DNA from: Vulcanimicrobium alpinum | GTDB taxonomy: Bacteria; Vulcanimicrobiota; Vulcanimicrobiia; Vulcanimicrobiales; Vulcanimicrobiaceae | NCBI RefSeq assembly: GCF_027923555.1 | Contig: NZ_AP025523.1 | Coordinates: forward strand, 682,001 to 746,000 | Length of the DNA stretch: 64,000 nt | Reading direction: 5' to 3' | Part shown: positions 19,150 to 63,046 of the stretch, piece after piece | Layout of the letters: every line of letters starts with the position of its first letter | Position numbering within the stretch: position 1 is the first letter of the stretch | The notes under the pieces: model-generated | The model's database searches: none | What the model saw: the letters and a program-made list of their open reading frames with translations, nothing else | Told to the model about the DNA's origin: nothing | Position numbers and translations under genes: made by a program

Positions 19150-21861
19150 TCAGACCGTCGTCGGCTCGGGCTTGGCGGGATCGATGCCGTATCGCGCGAT
19201 CGCATCGGCGACCTTCGCGCGATCGATCGTCCCTTCATCGGCGAGCGTCTTGAGCGCCGCCAGCGCGATCCAGCGCCGGTCGACTTCGAAGAACGATCGC
19301 AGCTGCTTGCGGGTGTCGCTGCGCCCGAAACCGTCGGTGCCCAGCGCGTGGAAGCGCCGCTCGACGAACGGGCGGATCTGCTCCGCGAACGTCTTCACAT
19401 AGTCGGTCGCGGCGATCACCGGCCCCGCATGTCCGTCGAGCTGCTGCGAAACGAACGCGCGGCGCGGCTCCTCGGTCGGGTGGAGCAGGTTCCAGCGCGC
19501 CGCCGACTCGCCGTCGCGATGCAGCATGGTGAAGCTGGTGCAGCTCCACACGTCGGCGACCACGCCGAAGTCGTCGCGCAGCAAGTCGCCCGCGGCGATC
19601 ACTTCGCGCAGGATCGCACCCGAGCCCATCAGCTGCACGCGCGGCTGACCTTTGCCCTGCGCACCGCCGTCGCGCAGCAGATACATCCCGCGCAAGATCC
19701 CGTCCTCGGCGCCGGCGGGCATCGCGGGGTGCTGGTAGTTCTCGTTGAGCAGCGAGAGATAGTAGTAGACGTCTTCCTGTTCGGCGAGCATCCGGCGCAC
19801 GCCGTCCTGCACGATCGTCGCGACTTCATAGCCGAACGTCGGATCGTACGGCATGCAGTTCGGAATCGACGCTGCGAACAGGTGCGCGTGGCCGTCTTCG
19901 TGCTGCAGCCCCTCGCCGTTGAGCGTGGTGCGCCCCGAGGTGCCGCCGAGCAGGAAGCCGCGCGTGCGCATGTCGCCCGCCGCCCACGCGAAGTCGCCGA
20001 TGCGCTGGAACCCGAACATCGAGTAGAAGATGTAGAACGGGAGCGTCTGCACGCCGTTGGTCGAGTACGACGTCCCCGACGCGATCCACGAGCACATCGC
20101 GCCGGCTTCGCTGATCCCTTCCTGCAGAATCTGACCGGCTTTGTCCTCGCGGTACCACATCAATTGGTCTGCGTCTTGCGGACGGTACAGCTGCCCGACC
20201 GCCGAATAGATCCCGAGCTGGCGGAACATCCCTTCCATCCCGAACGTGCGCGATTCGTCGGCGACGATCGGGACGACGCGCGGGCCGACCGTTTTGTCGC
20301 GCAAGATCGTCGAGAGCGTGCGCACGAACGCCATCGTCGTCGAGATCTCGCGTTCGCCGGTCGACTCGTGCAGGGCGGCGAAGGCGTCGCGCTGCGGCAC
20401 CGCCAGCGGCGCTTCGACGTTGCGGCGGCGCGTCGGCACCGAGCCGAGTTTCGCGACGCGTTCGCGCAGGTACTCGGCCTCGCGGCTGTCCGGCGCGGGC
20501 TTGATCAGCGGGACGTTCTCGAGATCCTTGTCGGAGATCGGGATCGAGAAGCGGTCGCGGAAGAAGCGCAGCTGCTCGAGCATCAGCTTCTTTTGCTGGT
20601 GCGCGATGTTCATGCCCTCGCCGGCCGAGCCCATTCCGTAGCCTTTGATCGTCTTCGCGAGGATGACCGTCGGAGCGCCTCGGTGTTCGGTCGCCGCTTT
20701 GTACGCGGCGTAGACTTTCACCGGGTCGTGGCCGCCGCGATTGAGCGCCCACACTTCGTCGTCGCTCATCCGCTCGACGAGTGCACGCGTCTCGGGATAG
20801 CGGCCGAAGAAGTGTTCGCGCACGTACGCTCCGTCGCGCGACTTATATGTCTGATAGTCGCCGTCGAGCGTTTCGCCCATCAGCTTCACGAGCATCCCGG
20901 TGCCGTCGGCTTCGAGCAGCGGATCCCACTTCGAGCCCCAGATCGTCTTGATGACGTTCCAGCCCGCGCCGCGGAAGATCCCTTCGAGTTCTTGGATCAC
21001 CTTGCCGTTGCCGCGTACCGGACCGTCGAGCCGCTGCAGATTGCAGTTGACGACGAAGATCAGGTTGTCGAGCTTCTCGCGCGCCGCGATCGCCAGCCCG
21101 GCGAGTGTTTCGGGTTCGTCGATCTCGCCGTCACCGAGAAAGCCCCACACCTTGCGGTCGGCGGGATCGATGAAGCCGCGGTCGCGCATGTAGCGCATGT
21201 AGCGCGCTTGATAGACCGCCTGCAGCGGACCCAGTCCCATCGAGACGGTCGCGAACTGCCAGAAGTCCGGCATCAGCCACGGATGCGGATACGACGGCAC
21301 GCCTTTGCCGTCGACCTCACGGCGGAAGTTCTCGACCTGCTCTTCGCTGATGCGTCCTTCAAGGAAGGCGCGCGCGTAGACGCCCGGTGACGAATGCCCT
21401 TGGAAGTAGACCAGATCGCCGCCGCTCGCGTGGTTGGGGCCGCGCCAGAAATGGTTGAAGCCGATGTCGTAGAGCGTCGCCGCCGACGAGAACGTCGCGA
21501 CGTGACCGCCGAGTTCGCTGTGGTCGCGGTTGGCGCGCACGACCATCGCCATCGCGTTCCAGCGCACGTAGTGGCGCAGGCGCTCTTCGATGTCGTGGTC
21601 GCCGGGGAAGTGCCCCTGCTGGAATGCAGCGATCGTGTTGACGTACGGCGTCGTCTGCGCCGCCGGGGTGCGGACGCCGCGCGTCGCAGCGCGCTCGACG
21701 AGGGCGCGGACCAGTTCGCTTGCCCGGCCGGCCCCTTCGGTCTCGATCACGCCGTCGAGCGCGTCGAGCCATTCGCGCGTCTCGTCGGGATCCGGACGTG
21801 CGGCCGGGGCGCTCGAGGCGCCGTCGGCGGCGGAAACGGGTGGCAGCGGCGTGTCGATCAT
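19150..21861 (-). CDS. aceE: pyruvate dehydrogenase E1, homodimeric type
   Basis: The 903-residue thiamine-diphosphate enzyme decarboxylates pyruvate and acetylates the E2 lipoyl group. The ThDP motif starts GDGEIDEPET and ends near NCNLQRLDGP. YHPWLMP-type sequence (YPHPWLMPDFWQF), the TIKGYGMG loop, and the C-terminal ALGTDGFGRSDTR region are all family hallmarks. The start is the ATG at 21861; in-frame sequence upstream is antisense to the MocR gene. It diverges from that regulator across 156 bases. Confidence 0.97.
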   Translation of the reverse strand: MIDTPLPPVSAADGASSAPAARPDPDETREWLDALDGVIETEGAGRASELVRALVERAATRGVRTPAAQTTPYVNTIAAFQQGHFPGDHDIEERLRHYVRWNAMAMVVRANRDHSELGGHVATFSSAATLYDIGFNHFWRGPNHASGGDLVYFQGHSSPGVYARAFLEGRISEEQVENFRREVDGKGVPSYPHPWLMPDFWQFATVSMGLGPLQAVYQARYMRYMRDRGFIDPADRKVWGFLGDGEIDEPETLAGLAIAAREKLDNLIFVVNCNLQRLDGPVRGNGKVIQELEGIFRGAGWNVIKTIWGSKWDPLLEADGTGMLVKLMGETLDGDYQTYKSRDGAYVREHFFGRYPETRALVERMSDDEVWALNRGGHDPVKVYAAYKAATEHRGAPTVILAKTIKGYGMGSAGEGMNIAHQQKKLMLEQLRFFRDRFSIPISDKDLENVPLIKPAPDSREAEYLRERVAKLGSVPTRRRNVEAPLAVPQRDAFAALHESTGEREISTTMAFVRTLSTILRDKTVGPRVVPIVADESRTFGMEGMFRQLGIYSAVGQLYRPQDADQLMWYREDKAGQILQEGISEAGAMCSWIASGTSYSTNGVQTLPFYIFYSMFGFQRIGDFAWAAGDMRTRGFLLGGTSGRTTLNGEGLQHEDGHAHLFAASIPNCMPYDPTFGYEVATIVQDGVRRMLAEQEDVYYYLSLLNENYQHPAMPAGAEDGILRGMYLLRDGGAQGKGQPRVQLMGSGAILREVIAAGDLLRDDFGVVADVWSCTSFTMLHRDGESAARWNLLHPTEEPRRAFVSQQLDGHAGPVIAATDYVKTFAEQIRPFVERRFHALGTDGFGRSDTRKQLRSFFEVDRRWIALAALKTLADEGTIDRAKVADAIARYGIDPAKPEPTTV

Positions 21862-27864: not shown

Positions 27865-28032
27865 GATTATTCACTCACCCCCTTGCCTAGTCAGACTCGA
27901 CCCGATCCGAAAAGCACCGGGTCTGCACCGGCAACGTGAGCCGGTTCACGCGAGTTCCGCTTCGCCCGACCCCCTCCCTGCCCGCCGCGTAAAGGCTGCG
28001 TGCCCCTCGGCGACGGAAAGGCGCTGGTAGCG

Positions 28033-57661: not shown

Positions 57662-57687
57662 CACGCAGGCGTACGATAGGGGCGGAC

Positions 57688-57843
57688 ATCCTCGTTAGGT
57701 GAGGCGTCCGCACGACAACAAGCCGCTGCCCGGAAAGGTCGAGAGACCCCAATGGGTTACCAGGCCTCGTCGAATCAAGGCGAGATCTAATGCGGCTGAG
57801 CTTCGGCTCTACGGCGTGTGGTGCCAAACCCCGGACGTAGAGG
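57688..57843 (+). ncRNA. M-box (ykoK) Mg2+ riboswitch aptamer
   Basis: The conserved M-box blocks occur in order: CGTTAGGTGAGGC (57693-57705), CCGCTGCCC (57723-57731), GAGACCCCAATGGG (57743-57756), CTAATGCGGCTG (57787-57798) and GTGCCAAACCC (57820-57831). CCTC at 57690 can pair with GAGG at 57839-57843 to close P1. The RNA folds around several Mg2+ ions and in known cases shuts off Mg2+ importers when Mg2+ is plentiful. An intrinsic terminator and Mg2+ genes follow, in keeping with that role. Confidence 0.93.
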
Positions 57844-57878
57844 CCGATCGACACGCCGCAGGCCTGTCGTTCTTCTTC

Positions 57879-57911
57879 ACCGCCGGATCGTGGATCTGAG
57901 CGGTTTTTTTA
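57879..57911 (+). terminator. M-box expression-platform terminator
   Basis: ACCGCC (57879-57884) pairs with GGCGGT (57900-57905), an inner GGATC/GATCT stem stabilises it, and seven Ts follow. This is the expected off-state terminator of a Mg2+-sensing leader. Confidence 0.88.
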
Positions 57912-57959
57912 TCTGAGACGCGCACCAACGGTGCGATCCGAAAGGGGGTGAGTTCCGCA

Positions 57960-58043
57960 ATGGACGACGGCAGTAGTTGTATCGACCGACCTCCGCCCGC
58001 TAGGGGCGTTTTCGCCGGCGTCGCTTTGCGACGTCATTTGTAA
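57960..58043 (+). CDS. 27-residue leader peptide ORF, mgtL-like candidate
   Basis: A strong AAGGGGGTGAG site sits six bases before the ATG, itself just after a CGCACC/GGTGCG hairpin. The peptide starts MDDG and contains DRPPPARG, so Asp and Pro stretches occur early, as in Salmonella MgtL, whose Asp/Pro run stalls or destabilises ribosomes in low Mg2+. Its codons for PPARGVF lie inside a terminator-like hairpin. I infer a translation-coupled attenuator, not a functional protein. Confidence 0.5.
   Translation: MDDGSSCIDRPPPARGVFAGVALRRHL
57994..58012 (+). terminator. hairpin with T-run inside the leader ORF
   Basis: CGCCC (57994-57998) and GGGCG (58004-58008) enclose a 5-base loop and are followed by TTTT. 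The stem is short for a terminator but lies exactly under the PPAR codons of the leader ORF, where a stalled ribosome would melt it. Confidence 0.4.
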
Positions 58044-58057
58044 GTAGGAGAGCTACC

Positions 58058-58264
58058 ATGGCATCACTGGTTGCCCTGCGGTCGCTGCACGCGCCGCACA
58101 CCTTCCTCGGCCGAATTGGGGCCATTTCTTCGAGCGCGTTACGCGCGACCGCACGCGCCTTTATAGCACGCCGCACGTCGACGAAGACGCATTGCCCCCC
58201 GCCGTACGTCGCTGAACCTGTCATGAGCCCGACGTCGATCTATTGGATCTTGCATGTGCGATGA
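58058..58264 (+). CDS. small ORF in the Mg2+ leader, uncertain
   Basis: The 68-codon ORF has AGGAG seven bases upstream and begins 14 bases after the leader-peptide stop. The product is Ser/Ala/Arg rich and ends SPTSIYWILHVR. No domain is visible, and the first part may be RNA structure instead of protein. Its stop overlaps the next small ORF's ATG. Confidence 0.35.
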   Translation: MASLVALRSLHAPHTFLGRIGAISSSALRATARAFIARRTSTKTHCPPPYVAEPVMSPTSIYWILHVR

Positions 58265-58464
58265 TGAACAACGCATCATCGATCCGCAAGCCCGGCTTAG
58301 CTGCGATCATCGACGCGTGCGCCGCGCGCGACCGTGCATGGCGCAAGGGTTACGCGACGACCGCATATCTCCTCGACGTCGCTCTGCGCGCAACGTTGGA
58401 GCGCCGCCGCACGGCGCAGGCCGTCCGGCGCGTCCTCGCGCGACGGGCAGCGCTGCACCGGTAG
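58261..58464 (+). CDS. small basic helical protein
   Basis: The 67-residue product is mostly helical: RKPGLAAIIDACAARDRAW, then TTAYLLDVALRATLERRR and an Arg-rich end. It could be a small regulatory or RNA-binding protein. The ATG overlaps the stop of the preceding ORF (ATGATG). A longer overlapping frame (from 58254) has shadow-like Arg/Pro composition and was rejected. Spacing to the transporter is 114 bases. Confidence 0.4.
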   Translation: MMNNASSIRKPGLAAIIDACAARDRAWRKGYATTAYLLDVALRATLERRRTAQAVRRVLARRAALHR

Positions 58465-58578: not shown

Positions 58579-60213
58579 GTGGCGAGCATCCACGAACCAC
58601 GCGCCAACGCCTCGGCGCATCTCGATGACATGCACGTTGGCGACATCAATGGTGGCCTCGGGACAATTCGTCGCGGTGATACCGGCGCGCGCAAGACGCT
58701 GCGGCAGCGGTTGGTGACGTTCCTTGCGATCCTCGGTCCCGGGCTCATCGTCATGGTCGGCGATAATGATGCCGGAGCGTTCGGTACCTACACGCAAGCC
58801 GGGCAGAATTACGGAACGACCCTGCTCTGGACGCTACTACTCCTCGTGCCGGTGCTTTACGTAAACCAGGAGATGGTGTTGCGGCTCGGCGCGGTCAGCG
58901 GCGTCGGCCACGCGCGACTCATTCTCGAACGCTTCGGCCGTTTTTGGGGCGCATTCAGCGTCATCGATCTGTTCATCCTCAACGCCTTGACGATCGTCAC
59001 GGAATTCATCGGTATCAGCCTAGCGTTGAGTTTCTTCGGGCTGCCGAAGATCTGGGGCGTGCTGGCCTCAGCCGCACTCGTTATCATTGCAGCGGCGCAA
59101 GGGAATTTTCGGCGCTTCGAGCGCTTCTGCATCGTGCTCTGCATCGGCAGCCTGTTTTTGATCCCGGTTCTAGTTGCGGTGCATGCGCCACTGGGTCAAA
59201 CGGTGCACGATTTCTTTATCCCCGGGCTCCCGAAGGGTGCCGAACTCAGCACCGTCATGCTGCTGATCGCCGGCATCGTCGGGACAACGATTGCGCCATG
59301 GCAGCTCTTTTTTCAGCAGAGCTACGTGATCGATAAGCGGATCACCCCTGCGTTTATTAACTACGAGCGTTGGGATCTGGTCCTCGGCATCGGTTTCGTG
59401 ATATTGGGCGCGATCGCGATGATGTCGTTTACGGCCGCCACATTCGCCGGGCATAAGGAATTTGGCAACTTTGCAGACGCCGGCGCCGTAGCCGCTGGAA
59501 TCGCGAAGTACGTCGGATACTGGCCGGCAGCGTTCTTTGCGATCGCACTCATGGATGCGTCGATCATCGGAGCTGCCGCCGTGAGCCTCTCGACGGCCTA
59601 CGCCGTTGGCGACGTGTTGTCGCTCAAGCATTCGCTCCATCGCAAACCCACCGACGCGCCGGCATTTTACGGTGTGTATCTGGCGTTGATCGGACTCGCC
59701 GCCGCGCTCGTACTGATCCCAGACTCGCCGCTCGGATTGTTGACCAATGCCGTGCAAGTACTCGCCGGCGTCCTGCTGCCCAGCGCGACCGTGTTCCTCT
59801 TATTGCTTTCAAACGATAAGCCCGTGCTCGGACCTTGGGCGAATACCGCCCGCGTAAACATTTTCACCGGTGTCGTGATCGCGGTACTCGTGGTGCTCTC
59901 GATCGTGCTGACCGCGTCGACATTATTTGCGAACTTCGGCACGACGCAGATCCTGGGGACCCTGGGAGTCGGGCTCGTCGGCGCGACCGGCATTGGAGTG
60001 TGGCTCGCGATCGCGCACCCCAGCCCAGCGGTTGGCGAATCGATGTCCTTGGATGCGAAGCGGGCCTGGCGGATGCCGCCGCTAACCGAACTTCCGCCCG
60101 CGAAGCTCTCGGTGCTCAATCGCGTGTGGCTTGTCATCTTGCGTGTCTACTTGGTGGGTGCCGTGGTCCTGGTCGTTTACAAGGTCACGCTACTCGCGCT
60201 GCACAGGGCTTGA
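58579..60213 (+). CDS. NRAMP-related Mg2+ transporter (NRMT)
   Basis: The 544-residue protein has 11-12 helices of the NRAMP/APC fold. The DPGN metal motif of helix 1 reads GDNDAGAFG and the MPH motif of helix 6 reads TTIAPWQLFF, the pattern of NRAMP-related magnesium transporters, not Mn/Fe NRAMPs. The M-box upstream supports Mg2+ as substrate. GTG 58579 has GGAG six bases upstream and was preferred over ATG 58561. Codon use is less GC-rich than flanking genes, which may reflect transfer. An acidic N-terminal tail of about 35 residues precedes the first helix. Confidence 0.88.
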   Translation: MASIHEPRANASAHLDDMHVGDINGGLGTIRRGDTGARKTLRQRLVTFLAILGPGLIVMVGDNDAGAFGTYTQAGQNYGTTLLWTLLLLVPVLYVNQEMVLRLGAVSGVGHARLILERFGRFWGAFSVIDLFILNALTIVTEFIGISLALSFFGLPKIWGVLASAALVIIAAAQGNFRRFERFCIVLCIGSLFLIPVLVAVHAPLGQTVHDFFIPGLPKGAELSTVMLLIAGIVGTTIAPWQLFFQQSYVIDKRITPAFINYERWDLVLGIGFVILGAIAMMSFTAATFAGHKEFGNFADAGAVAAGIAKYVGYWPAAFFAIALMDASIIGAAAVSLSTAYAVGDVLSLKHSLHRKPTDAPAFYGVYLALIGLAAALVLIPDSPLGLLTNAVQVLAGVLLPSATVFLLLLSNDKPVLGPWANTARVNIFTGVVIAVLVVLSIVLTASTLFANFGTTQILGTLGVGLVGATGIGVWLAIAHPSPAVGESMSLDAKRAWRMPPLTELPPAKLSVLNRVWLVILRVYLVGAVVLVVYKVTLLALHRA

Positions 60214-60226
60214 CGCGTAGCGGGTA

Positions 60227-60355
60227 ATGCAACGCGATTGGACGCGTGCGCTCCTGTGGATCGCGGCAATTTATCTCCTCGTCATTATCGTCGGATTTAT
60301 CTTCATCTGGCTTCACGTATTCCAGCTCCCTCAGCCACTGCGCCCCACGCGTTAA
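60227..60355 (+). CDS. 42-residue single-helix membrane protein
   Basis: The ORF starts MQRDWTRALLW, has one long hydrophobic helix (about residues 9-29, rich in Ile, Leu and Val) and ends LPQPLRPTR, so the N-terminus is basic inside and the tail is short. It lies 13 bases after the transporter and 13 before the barrel gene, in the same direction. Small membrane proteins such as MgtS stabilise Mg2+ transporters in E. coli; sequence similarity is not claimed. The ribosome site is weak. Confidence 0.65.
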   Translation: MQRDWTRALLWIAAIYLLVIIVGFIFIWLHVFQLPQPLRPTR

Positions 60356-60368
60356 ATCGGAGGGTCTC

Positions 60369-62324
60369 ATGTTCTCACGCGGCTTCGCGCTCGGTGCGGC
60401 ATCCGTCTGGTTGGTTGCGCTCGGGCTCACCGCTCGGTCAACCGCAAATGCGGACCCGAGTCAGTCGCCCGGCCCTATTTCGACGATATCGCCGACGGCG
60501 ACATCGTCCGCCACACTGAGCCCCGCCCCATCGTCGACTCCGCGTGCGCCGGGCCTGCATGTCGACTCCGCCGCGAGCATCACATTCGTCAATCAAGGTA
60601 CCTCCGGAGGCGGACAAGTCGGGCCTGAGGCGCCTGGGTTTCTTGCCGGTTCGCCGCTCTCGCCGAACACACCGTACGATCTCTTCTCGAGCGCCCCGCA
60701 GGTTCCGGGGATCGCTGGGATCGGCGCGCTCGTCTCGACCGCGACGTACCGTTCGCGAACGCTCGACATCGGCCTCACCGCCGGGCTCGGTTACGTGCGC
60801 GGAAGCACGACCAACGCCACGTATTGGGGTGAAAACCTCCTCCCGACGTTAAATCCGCATCTTGGATCGCAAGCGTTGCCCTACGCCATCGCGTTCCCGA
60901 CGCATGCTGGCGGCGACGATGGCACGGCACTGCGATTATCGCTGCTCGGCGCGTCCATCGCGACTGCCGACGGTAATCTGCGCGTGCGTGGTGGCTGGTT
61001 CGATCTCGCGCAGACCGACCGTTTCGTCTTCGCGCCGCCGGCGCTCACCAGCGTGAACCCGCAGATCGCGTACGCGCCGGCGGAATCGCTCTCGAGCGGG
61101 CTCGCCGGCGCGCCGTGGTGGCAGCCCGCCGCGACGGCGCTCCCGCTGCACGGGATCGACGCCGTCGTGCGGCACGGCGACGCGACCATCGAACTTACCA
61201 GCGCCGCGCTGCCGTCGCTGCCGGGCCAGGGCGCGCGCATGACGATGGGGTCGCTCGTGTTCGATCGCGGCGAGGGGACGCGCTTCTCCGCGCAGCTGCT
61301 GCACGTCGCGACCGGCGGTGCGCCGTTCGGCACGACGATCCCGACCGGACTCGATCCGCGGTTTACGCCGACGCCGCAGGGGATCTTGCCGACCAGCACG
61401 CTCAGCGGCCAGCGTCAGACGATCGCGGGAGTCCGCGGCGCGTTTCACCTTCTGCCCGCCGAGGGTGTCGATGCGGTCGTGGAGATCGGCCGCGCGTGGT
61501 ACGACGCCGCTCCGGTCGCGCGCCCCGGCACCGAGGCCCCGGGCGGCTTCTATCACGTTGGGCTCGCGTGGATGCACAACCGCGCTACCGCAGCGCTGGA
61601 TCTTTATCGGATGGAGCCGCGGTACGCTACGATCATCCTGCCGTACGGCGTTCCGGAGAATCAGTGGAGCGCGGCGTTCGCGTGGCCCGGGCAATGGCTC
61701 AAGTCCAACTATCAGCTCATCGACAACAGCGTGCTGGGCGTCAACCGCCAGGGATATCGCCTCCGTTACGCCGTCGACGAGGGGCCGCTCGAAGCGCGTC
61801 TCGAGTTCACGAACTTGCAGCAGATCGAACCGGAGACGACGTCGATGTCGACGCAGTCGGGGTATGTCGACGGCTACTATCTGCCGCAAGTGCCCGATGC
61901 TGCGACGTTCGGACGGCAGAAGCGCTACGGTTTCTGGGCGGCATGGCATCCGCGCTTCGGCGACGTCACGCTCGACGTCGTCGACGACACGCTCTACCGG
62001 CCGTTCGCCCCGGCGCATCCCGAGGATCGTGTCTCCTACGAGGTGCCGCAAGCCGTCGTCACGTACTCGCGCGCGATCGCGGCGAATGCTACATTCGCCG
62101 CGGGCCTCGGACGCTATGCGATCAAAGGCGCGTTCGCCGAACCGCTCGACTTCGCCGAACGCCTCGCGTTCGCGGGCGTGCAGTTCCGGTCGAGTTCGCG
62201 CGCGTCTACGTTGATCACGTTCCGGCGCACGGCGTTCGCGGGGATGTCGACCTTCCCGGCGTCGCCGGCGAGTCCGAACTTCACCGGTTCTGCGCTGGTC
62301 GCCGAAGAACGTCTGCGGTTCTGA
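60369..62324 (+). CDS. outer-membrane beta-barrel protein
   Basis: The 651-residue protein has a signal peptide (residues 1-28, cut after TANA), a Ser/Thr/Pro linker and then many amphipathic strands with aromatic girdles (for example GFYHVGLAWMHNRATAALDLYRM, split by turns). It ends EERLRF with a terminal Phe, the signal for BAM-dependent insertion. GGAGG lies six bases before the ATG. Placement inside an M-box operon suggests an outer-membrane channel for Mg2+ or a Mg2+ complex. I do not recognise a named porin family. Confidence 0.8.
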   Translation: MFSRGFALGAASVWLVALGLTARSTANADPSQSPGPISTISPTATSSATLSPAPSSTPRAPGLHVDSAASITFVNQGTSGGGQVGPEAPGFLAGSPLSPNTPYDLFSSAPQVPGIAGIGALVSTATYRSRTLDIGLTAGLGYVRGSTTNATYWGENLLPTLNPHLGSQALPYAIAFPTHAGGDDGTALRLSLLGASIATADGNLRVRGGWFDLAQTDRFVFAPPALTSVNPQIAYAPAESLSSGLAGAPWWQPAATALPLHGIDAVVRHGDATIELTSAALPSLPGQGARMTMGSLVFDRGEGTRFSAQLLHVATGGAPFGTTIPTGLDPRFTPTPQGILPTSTLSGQRQTIAGVRGAFHLLPAEGVDAVVEIGRAWYDAAPVARPGTEAPGGFYHVGLAWMHNRATAALDLYRMEPRYATIILPYGVPENQWSAAFAWPGQWLKSNYQLIDNSVLGVNRQGYRLRYAVDEGPLEARLEFTNLQQIEPETTSMSTQSGYVDGYYLPQVPDAATFGRQKRYGFWAAWHPRFGDVTLDVVDDTLYRPFAPAHPEDRVSYEVPQAVVTYSRAIAANATFAAGLGRYAIKGAFAEPLDFAERLAFAGVQFRSSSRASTLITFRRTAFAGMSTFPASPASPNFTGSALVAEERLRF

Positions 62325-62326
62325 TC

Positions 62327-63046
62327 ATGGACTTCTGGGATTTCGTCCTGCGGCTCGCAGCTGCGCTGCTGCTCGGTTCGATCGTAGGCCTGGAGCGGCA
62401 GTATCGCCAGCGCACGGCGGGGCTGCGCACGAATGCGCTCGTTTCGGTCGGTGCGGCGACGTTCGTGATGATCTCCGCACTCGATAAGACGGGCGATCCG
62501 ACGCGCGTCGCAGCCCAGGTCGTGTCCGGGATCGGGTTCCTCGCCGGCGGCGTGATCTTTCGCGAAGGGCTTAGCGTGCAAGGACTCAACACCGGCGCGA
62601 CGATCTGGGCGACCGCGGCGGTCGGAACGCTCGCGGGGTTCGGGTTTTTCGCGCAGGCGGCCGCCGGAGCGGCGGCGATCTTGGCGGCCAACGTGTTCTT
62701 GCGGCCGATCGCACGCAGCATCAACCGTCAGCCGTTCGACGATACCGAAGTCGTCACGAGCTACGAGATTCGCGCGGTCTGCCGCAACGACGTCGAAGAG
62801 CAGGTGCGCGAGGCGCTGATTGCGTCGGTACGCGGCGGACCGCTGATCCTGCAAGCGCTTTCCAGCGAAGACATCGAGGCGACGACGCGGGTCGAGGTGG
62901 TCGCCGACGTCGCGGCGAGGGGACGCGCGGACACCCACCTTGAGCGCTCGGTGACGAAGCTCGGCGTCGTCTCCGGCGTCACCGCGGTCAGCTGGAAAGC
63001 CGTCCCGACCGGCGAGGACGAACAGGCGATGCTCGGTGACGCGTGA
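62327..63046 (+). CDS. mgtC: MgtC/SapB family protein
   Basis: The 239-residue protein has an N-terminal membrane domain with the MgtC signature GSIVGLERQYRQRTAGLRT, IGFLAGGVIF and GLNTGATIWATAAVG, then a soluble ACT-like domain of about 90 residues. MgtC helps cells grow in low Mg2+, partly by acting on the F-type ATPase. It is the last gene of the Mg2+ operon, two bases after the barrel gene stop. Confidence 0.95.
   Translation: MDFWDFVLRLAAALLLGSIVGLERQYRQRTAGLRTNALVSVGAATFVMISALDKTGDPTRVAAQVVSGIGFLAGGVIFREGLSVQGLNTGATIWATAAVGTLAGFGFFAQAAAGAAAILAANVFLRPIARSINRQPFDDTEVVTSYEIRAVCRNDVEEQVREALIASVRGGPLILQALSSEDIEATTRVEVVADVAARGRADTHLERSVTKLGVVSGVTAVSWKAVPTGEDEQAMLGDA

Follow-up and report, generated by a model that had tools for sequence, protein, structure and literature searches.

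In Vulcanimicrobium alpinum, an M-box Mg2+ riboswitch and its terminator are followed by two small open reading frames (uORF1 and uORF2), and then by a transporter operon headed by an NRMT-type gene. We propose that these parts make up a translated relay leader, running from the M-box to uORF1, from uORF1 to uORF2 and from there to NRMT, in which the first residues of uORF1 would act on the ribosome. We give this reading a probability of about one half. Comparison of related leaders shows that the uORF1 start, its Shine-Dalgarno (SD) sequence, the N-terminal residues, two hairpins (H1 and H2), and the stop position are conserved, as is the association with the M-box and NRMT genes.

By analogy with known M-boxes, low Mg2+ would let RNA polymerase past the terminator. 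Ribosomes would then load at a near-complete complement of the anti-SD, translate uORF1, open H1 and H2, and stop a few nucleotides 5′ of the uORF2 start. Termination-reinitiation would carry them to uORF2 and then to the transporter operon, and uORF1 translation may shield the structured leader from Rho. The N-terminus, M-D-[D/G]-[G/S]-[P/S], most likely acts during the first peptide bonds and would set ribosome throughput, an effect whose existence and direction we infer.

The M-box Locus and Its Operon

The window, that is the whole stretch of 64,000 nucleotides analyzed here, is part of a 3.5-Mb single-contig genome. Its features are collected in Table 1. The score of the aptamer lies above the gathering score of its family (44), and this M-box is the only one in the whole genome.

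Table 1. Features of the M-box leader and of the downstream operon in the window.
Feature	Position	Strand	Basis
M-box Mg2+ riboswitch aptamer (RF00380)	57684–57849	+	cmscan 123.5 bits, E 3e-27
M-box intrinsic terminator, stem-loop and T7	57879–57910	+	fold z -3.1, 2/200 shuffles; terminator scan
uORF1 extended Shine-Dalgarno AAAGGGGGTGA	57941–57951	+	sequence; kept in nearly all uORF1 loci
uORF1 leader ORF, 27 codons, MDDGSSCIDRPPPARGVFAGVALRRHL (starts MDDGSSCIDRPPPAR...)	57960–58043	+	sequence, comparison
Pro codons CCT CCG CCC, overlapping H1	57990–57998	+	sequence
Hairpin H1 CGCCC/GGGCG	57994–58008	+	sequence; covariation in relatives
H1 arms CGCCC and GGGCG	57994–57998 and 58004–58008	+	
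TTTT directly 3′ of H1	58009–58012	+	sequence
Hairpin H2 GGCGTCGC/GCGACGTC, just 5′ of the uORF2 ribosome site	58017–58035	+	folding, comparison
uORF2 Shine-Dalgarno AGGAG	58046–58050	+	sequence
uORF2, 68 aa, C-terminus SIYWILHVR, conserved M-box-linked small ORF	58058–58264	+	
uORF3, 67 aa, start overlapping the uORF2 stop (ATGA)	58261–58464	+	positional counterpart in G091
Nramp transporter gene of the NRMT type; start GTG, SD GAGGAG	58579–60213	+	Pfam Nramp E 5e-79
Alternative ATG start of the Nramp gene	58561	+	
Large protein without Pfam family, porin-like by inspection, start uncertain	60246–62324	+	
mgtC	62327–63046	+	Pfam MgtC E 6e-36

The best solved-structure match of the Nramp protein is EleNRMT (7qia, E 9e-48), with which it has the alpha-6 IAPW motif in common. 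These two points, judged from the protein sequence, make it plausible that the operon serves Mg2+ transport. An NRMT is marked by closeness to EleNRMT, by a replacement of Met with Ala and of the first His with Trp in alpha-6, and by a change of Asn to Gly in alpha-1; the window protein conforms to this pattern, with Ala, not Gly, at the alpha-1 position.

The interval between uORF2 and the NRMT gene holds the 67-aa uORF3 and a further ~115 nt, a distance that counts against the relay. uORF3 is Arg/Ala-rich and matches no Pfam family; G091 (L052) has a small ORF at the same position. In relatives, a gene that by eye looks similar to that of the large protein lies between uORF2 and the Nramp gene. 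In the window and in relatives such as L078, L094, and L236, the large protein has a PSPSPTP-rich N-terminus and its gene repeatedly adjoins M-box, Nramp, and mgtC genes; it could be an outer-membrane Mg2+ channel.

uORF1 Is a Conserved Leader ORF

Taken alone, the window stretch folds no better than its shuffled versions (z +0.48 and -0.45), and the case for uORF1 rests on comparison. The string made of the SD, the start codon, and MDDG occurs nowhere else in the window (expected number, 0). A covariance model built from 19 sequences of other genera, the window's genus being left out, finds the window copy as its single match in the 3.5-Mb genome (E 4.4e-9). The same model also matches members of two other families of this class, and direct reading of their DNA reveals M-box sequence, uORF1, and uORF2 together. 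As judged from these comparisons, uORF1 is a real leader ORF, conserved in its place between M-box and NRMT gene. The preliminary description had reported a leader ORF with a strong ribosome site behind the M-box terminator, and all of these parts are present, the ribosome site being a near-perfect SD; the conserved ORF that it proposed to look for in relatives is there as well, with its start kept and its strong SD present in nearly all loci, as seen over 40 copies. These copies, which come from three families of Candidatus Eremiobacterota, are related sequences, so that the counts given below are not independent. Their lengths range from 18 to 49 aa.

Within the family, 84 of the 99 genomes have an M-box above the cut-off. 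Two groups are prominent in the set of M-box loci (98 oriented loci and the window). In one, an mgtE-type gene (MAF..GFISELVGR; Pfam MgtE_N) stands immediately behind the M-box; in the other, a short ORF comes next, which has an extended SD and starts with an MD[D/G]G-like sequence. The uORF1 motif was recognized in 33 of these 99 loci, G090 being added by hand. Where an NRMT-A orthologue lies directly behind the M-box, uORF1 is always present (11/11), and uORF2 is found within the stretch read in 10 of the 11. The extended SD is also carried by M-box-controlled mgtE-type genes and is thus not special to uORF1, which again speaks against the relay. A second perfect AAGGGGGTGA extended SD-like site occurs in the window at 27875–27884 on the minus strand.

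The DNA pattern formed by the SD and the uORF1 start has nine matches among 84,980 species genomes, all in Eremiobacterota MAGs. A first phylum-wide pattern, whose spacing was too rigid, matched 2 genomes and was repeated with a gap; matches of the gapped pattern outside the family look like chance.

Selection Acts on the Start of the uORF1 Peptide

Codon 2 is Asp in all 40 aligned uORF1s. At codon 3, 28 of them have Asp and 10 have Gly; Gly4 is present in 31, and the fifth residue is Pro in 23 copies and Ser in 11. Neither Asp2 nor Asp3 is ever replaced by Glu, and all four synonymous codons are in use for Gly4 and for Pro5. With one sequence per genus (n = 14) and a bootstrap over genera, pN/pS of codons 2–5 is 0.31 in frame (5–95% interval 0.20–0.39) vs. 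1.34 and 0.95 out of frame, and that of codons 9–16 is 0.95, like the other frames. This difference indicates that the constraint on the peptide is confined to the very start of uORF1. From the codon-level pattern we also infer that uORF1 is translated.

A functional small peptide would account for a frame that is kept open and for a conserved N-terminus. However, codons 9–16 evolve as if the peptide were unimportant, G030 and G031 differ by a one-base change that puts the latter half of uORF1 into another frame while leaving the ORF intact, and the length of the ORF varies widely. With its second half neutral, the peptide was rejected as the product of uORF1, and we consider this explanation highly improbable.

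A restriction of selection to the first residues, where ribosome destabilization acts, would also be expected if uORF1 were an mgtL-like Mg2+ sensor, added to the M-box. At low Mg2+, the early Asp(-Asp)-Gly-Pro codons would then make ribosomes pause or drop off, the hairpins would refold, and Rho- or hairpin-dependent termination would be relieved, the M-box and the nascent chain acting in series. In E. coli, early acidic residues destabilize ribosomes; early di-acidic residues and the EPDP of MgtL cause pausing or drop-off, which EttA counteracts, and EPDP makes MgtL a Mg2+ sensor acting via Rho (PMC11282234). The frequencies of Asp2, Asp3, and Pro5 fit such a sensor, and Rho and an EttA-class ABC-F protein are both encoded in the genome, a point that counts for the relay as well. 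On the other hand, 12 of the 40 copies are without Asp3 and many are without Pro near the start, leaving a single Asp as the sole constant. This Asp never changes to Glu, although a pure charge effect would allow it, and di-acidic residues alone are insufficient (PMC11282234). Since one Asp, never Glu, is the sole invariant residue, the argument from mgtL is weak, and we regard this sensor as possible but lean against it.

Hairpins, Proline Codons, and a Proposed Hand-Over to uORF2

Beyond its first codons, uORF1 is constrained differently. In H1 and H2, 8 of the 12 pairs have changed on both sides (0/500 shuffles), and 90% of the cells are paired vs. 28–48% when the pairing is slid. Because of these double-sided changes, the body of uORF1 is, on comparative grounds, constrained as RNA. 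H2 is the more widespread stem. H1 is missing from seven leaders (G010, G011, G013, G014, G034, G036, and G039). Compensatory stem changes, which the preliminary description proposed to seek in relatives, do occur, though not for H1 in every leader.

H1 is also the center of the explanation first put forward. In this model, a ribosome slowed at Asp and Pro codons would cover an arm of H1 and block an intrinsic terminator, and low Mg2+ or low proline would lead to read-through. The window does have these elements: CCT CCG CCC overlaps the 5′ arm of H1 (57994–57998) and TTTT follows. The PPP run and the H1 stem occur together in six loci (G000, G029, G089, G090, G091, and G094), and G087 has a QPP form with a matching T-A pair. 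However, PPP has no counterpart beyond the window's genus and G029, and the T-run is missing in the other members of the genus. The 5-bp stem with four Ts fails the terminator scan, and a terminator-like hairpin with a T-rich tail, of any kind, lies within uORF1 in only 7 of the 40 loci. Given the narrow distribution of PPP and the T-run, the scarcity of tails, and the seven leaders without H1, a ribosome-controlled intrinsic terminator at H1 would be at best a local development, and we find the model very unlikely. From the comparison, the proline run and the terminator that drew attention are local details. What stands of the attenuator described at first is the conserved leader ORF with its start, SD, and stems; its proline run and terminator do not, and the small ORF that comes next had been missed, as had the geometry that points to coupling.

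That geometry is regular. In 39 of the 40 loci, uORF1 reaches its first in-frame stop between -8 and +30 nt from the start of uORF2; for the other two frames, the first stop falls in this interval in 15 loci and in 1. In many loci, the end of uORF2 in turn abuts or overlaps the next long gene (offsets of, for example, +4, -4, +12, +13, and +20 nt). Together, the constraint on the peptide start, the hairpins, the fixed stop position, and the position of the uORF2 end argue for ribosomes that traverse uORF1 and then hand over to uORF2.

How the hand-over might occur was approached by structure prediction. The accessibility of the uORF2 SD is barely tied to uORF1 translation, the predicted mean unpaired fraction going only from 0.49 to 0.56, and masking of this SD by the uORF1 region was therefore rejected. 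Coupling by SD unmasking is thus not supported by the model, and reinitiation, our preferred link for this reason, would have to carry the effect. RNAalifold also proposed a pairing of both start codons (CAUGGACG with YGYCAUG). It was set aside; the columns hardly vary and both contain CAUG, and GTGTCATG is kept in two of the three uORF2 copies without uORF1.

These predictions also bear on a translational platform like that of Mycobacterium tuberculosis pe20, where the uORF1 SD and a pyrimidine-rich anti-SD would swap partners with the uORF2 SD and the peptide would matter little. The order of the parts is the same, both systems have an M-box-independent uORF2 homologue (PMC12810186), and ACCTCC in the window (57989–57994) could pair with GGGGGT. 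Yet an intrinsic terminator lies between the aptamer and the uORF1 SD, ACCTCC is confined to part of the window's genus and a neighbor, the N-terminal residues are under peptide-level selection, and the uORF1 region is not predicted to set the accessibility of the uORF2 SD. We judge such a platform unlikely.

In the relay that we favor, the M-box terminator precedes uORF1. A perfect-stem scan recognized 18 of 34 M-box terminators, a count that was not used, since most of those missed carry, by eye, a T-run behind a stem that is longer or broken.

Leader ORFs Apart From the M-box

Cases of uORF1 and uORF2 INDEPENDENCE from the M-box were observed in G006, G056, G001, and G023. In G006 (L216, C29 at about 20600–20800), an insertion with repeat-like sequence splits the M-box and leaves the terminator, uORF1, and uORF2 intact; this locus is a natural M-box knock-out. 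G056 (L086, C67:49468–49610) has, between two Nramp genes, a second uORF1 with H1 and H2, without M-box and without uORF2, directly 5′ of the NRMT-A orthologue. The persistence of uORF1 in these two loci counts in favor of the relay. One may also imagine from G056 and G006 that the M-box is stacked on an independent second Mg2+ sensor peptide, working by drop-off or pausing at low Mg2+, able to function without the M-box, mgtL-like, and evolved separately in Eremiobacterota; we hold this view to be doubtful.

uORF2 is found without M-box or uORF1 in G001 and G023. In G023 (G023:C9:121821), no obvious same-strand gene follows and uORF2 is apparently monocistronic. The existence of these copies suggests, from sequence, that uORF2 encodes a small protein. 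Most members of the family are ~35–68 aa long, with MKKIL...HDDxLRANQ...FSFWRALVS or an end in FWILHAR, and lie mostly behind an M-box and uORF1 (window; alignments A1 and A2; L213, L214, and L215). uORF2 has no Pfam or NCBIfam match.

In G049 (C50:26000–27260, L241), a weak M-box that lacks part of its aptamer precedes an MDDGPS start, and from there the frame continues into a signal-peptide-like stretch and a protein of 324 aa, as though uORF1 and the downstream gene were fused.

Comparison With Known Systems

M-boxes upstream of Nramp-related Mg2+ transporter genes occur in Clostridium, as for the NrmT genes, and the part of that report consulted mentions no leader ORF (PMC4072509). The B12 riboswitches of M. 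tuberculosis resemble the leader proposed here in that riboswitch and uORF translation act together; they differ from it by ligand and phylum, and no shared sequence is known from the part of the account consulted (PMC11260477).

The mgtL leaders of Salmonella and E. coli share with the window a short leader ORF 5′ of a Mg2+ transporter gene, one or more acidic residues among the first codons, and Rho (PMC11282234). The window differs by an M-box in place of the mgtA-type leader RNA, for which no Rfam match up to E 5 was found besides the M-box and one chance-level match. It also has no EPDP, early Pro codons of the mgtL type are not conserved, and a response of uORF1 to Mg2+ is a proposal only. 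Of the mgtL likeness pointed out in the preliminary description, only a loose resemblance stands, in that the part conserved is an early acidic N-terminus ahead of a Mg2+ transporter gene; the proline run and the T-run are not general. If the N-terminus does sense Mg2+, one transporter would be under two unrelated Mg2+ sensors in series, a possibility that can be tested directly in a laboratory host with the ~40 natural variants. In the uORF1 leader, moreover, selection on the nascent N-terminus is separable from selection on RNA structure.

The closest known system is the M-box leader of M. tuberculosis pe20, with its uORF1 and uORF2/Rv1805A (D'Halluin et al., 2026; PMC12810186), of which the Eremiobacterota leader is a variant whose uORF families are its own. 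In both, the M-box is followed by two small ORFs, each with an SD, of which uORF2 is conserved and has M-box-independent homologues (the two uORF2 peptides being likened by position), and mgtC belongs to the operon (PMC12810186). The order of parts found in M. tuberculosis is thus found here. The exchange between the uORF1 SD, an anti-SD, and the uORF2 SD, which there proceeds without an intrinsic terminator, is not supported for the window, where a terminator is present and no masking of the uORF2 SD is predicted. uORF1 of pe20 is poorly conserved and termination is Rho-dependent (PMC12810186), whereas the window has a uORF1 with a selected N-terminus, an intrinsic terminator before it, an NRMT as transporter, and a different phylum as host. 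Thus, the arrangement of an M-box and two uORFs that was described for M. tuberculosis in 2026 is present in an uncultured phylum as well, where the expression platform is another one.
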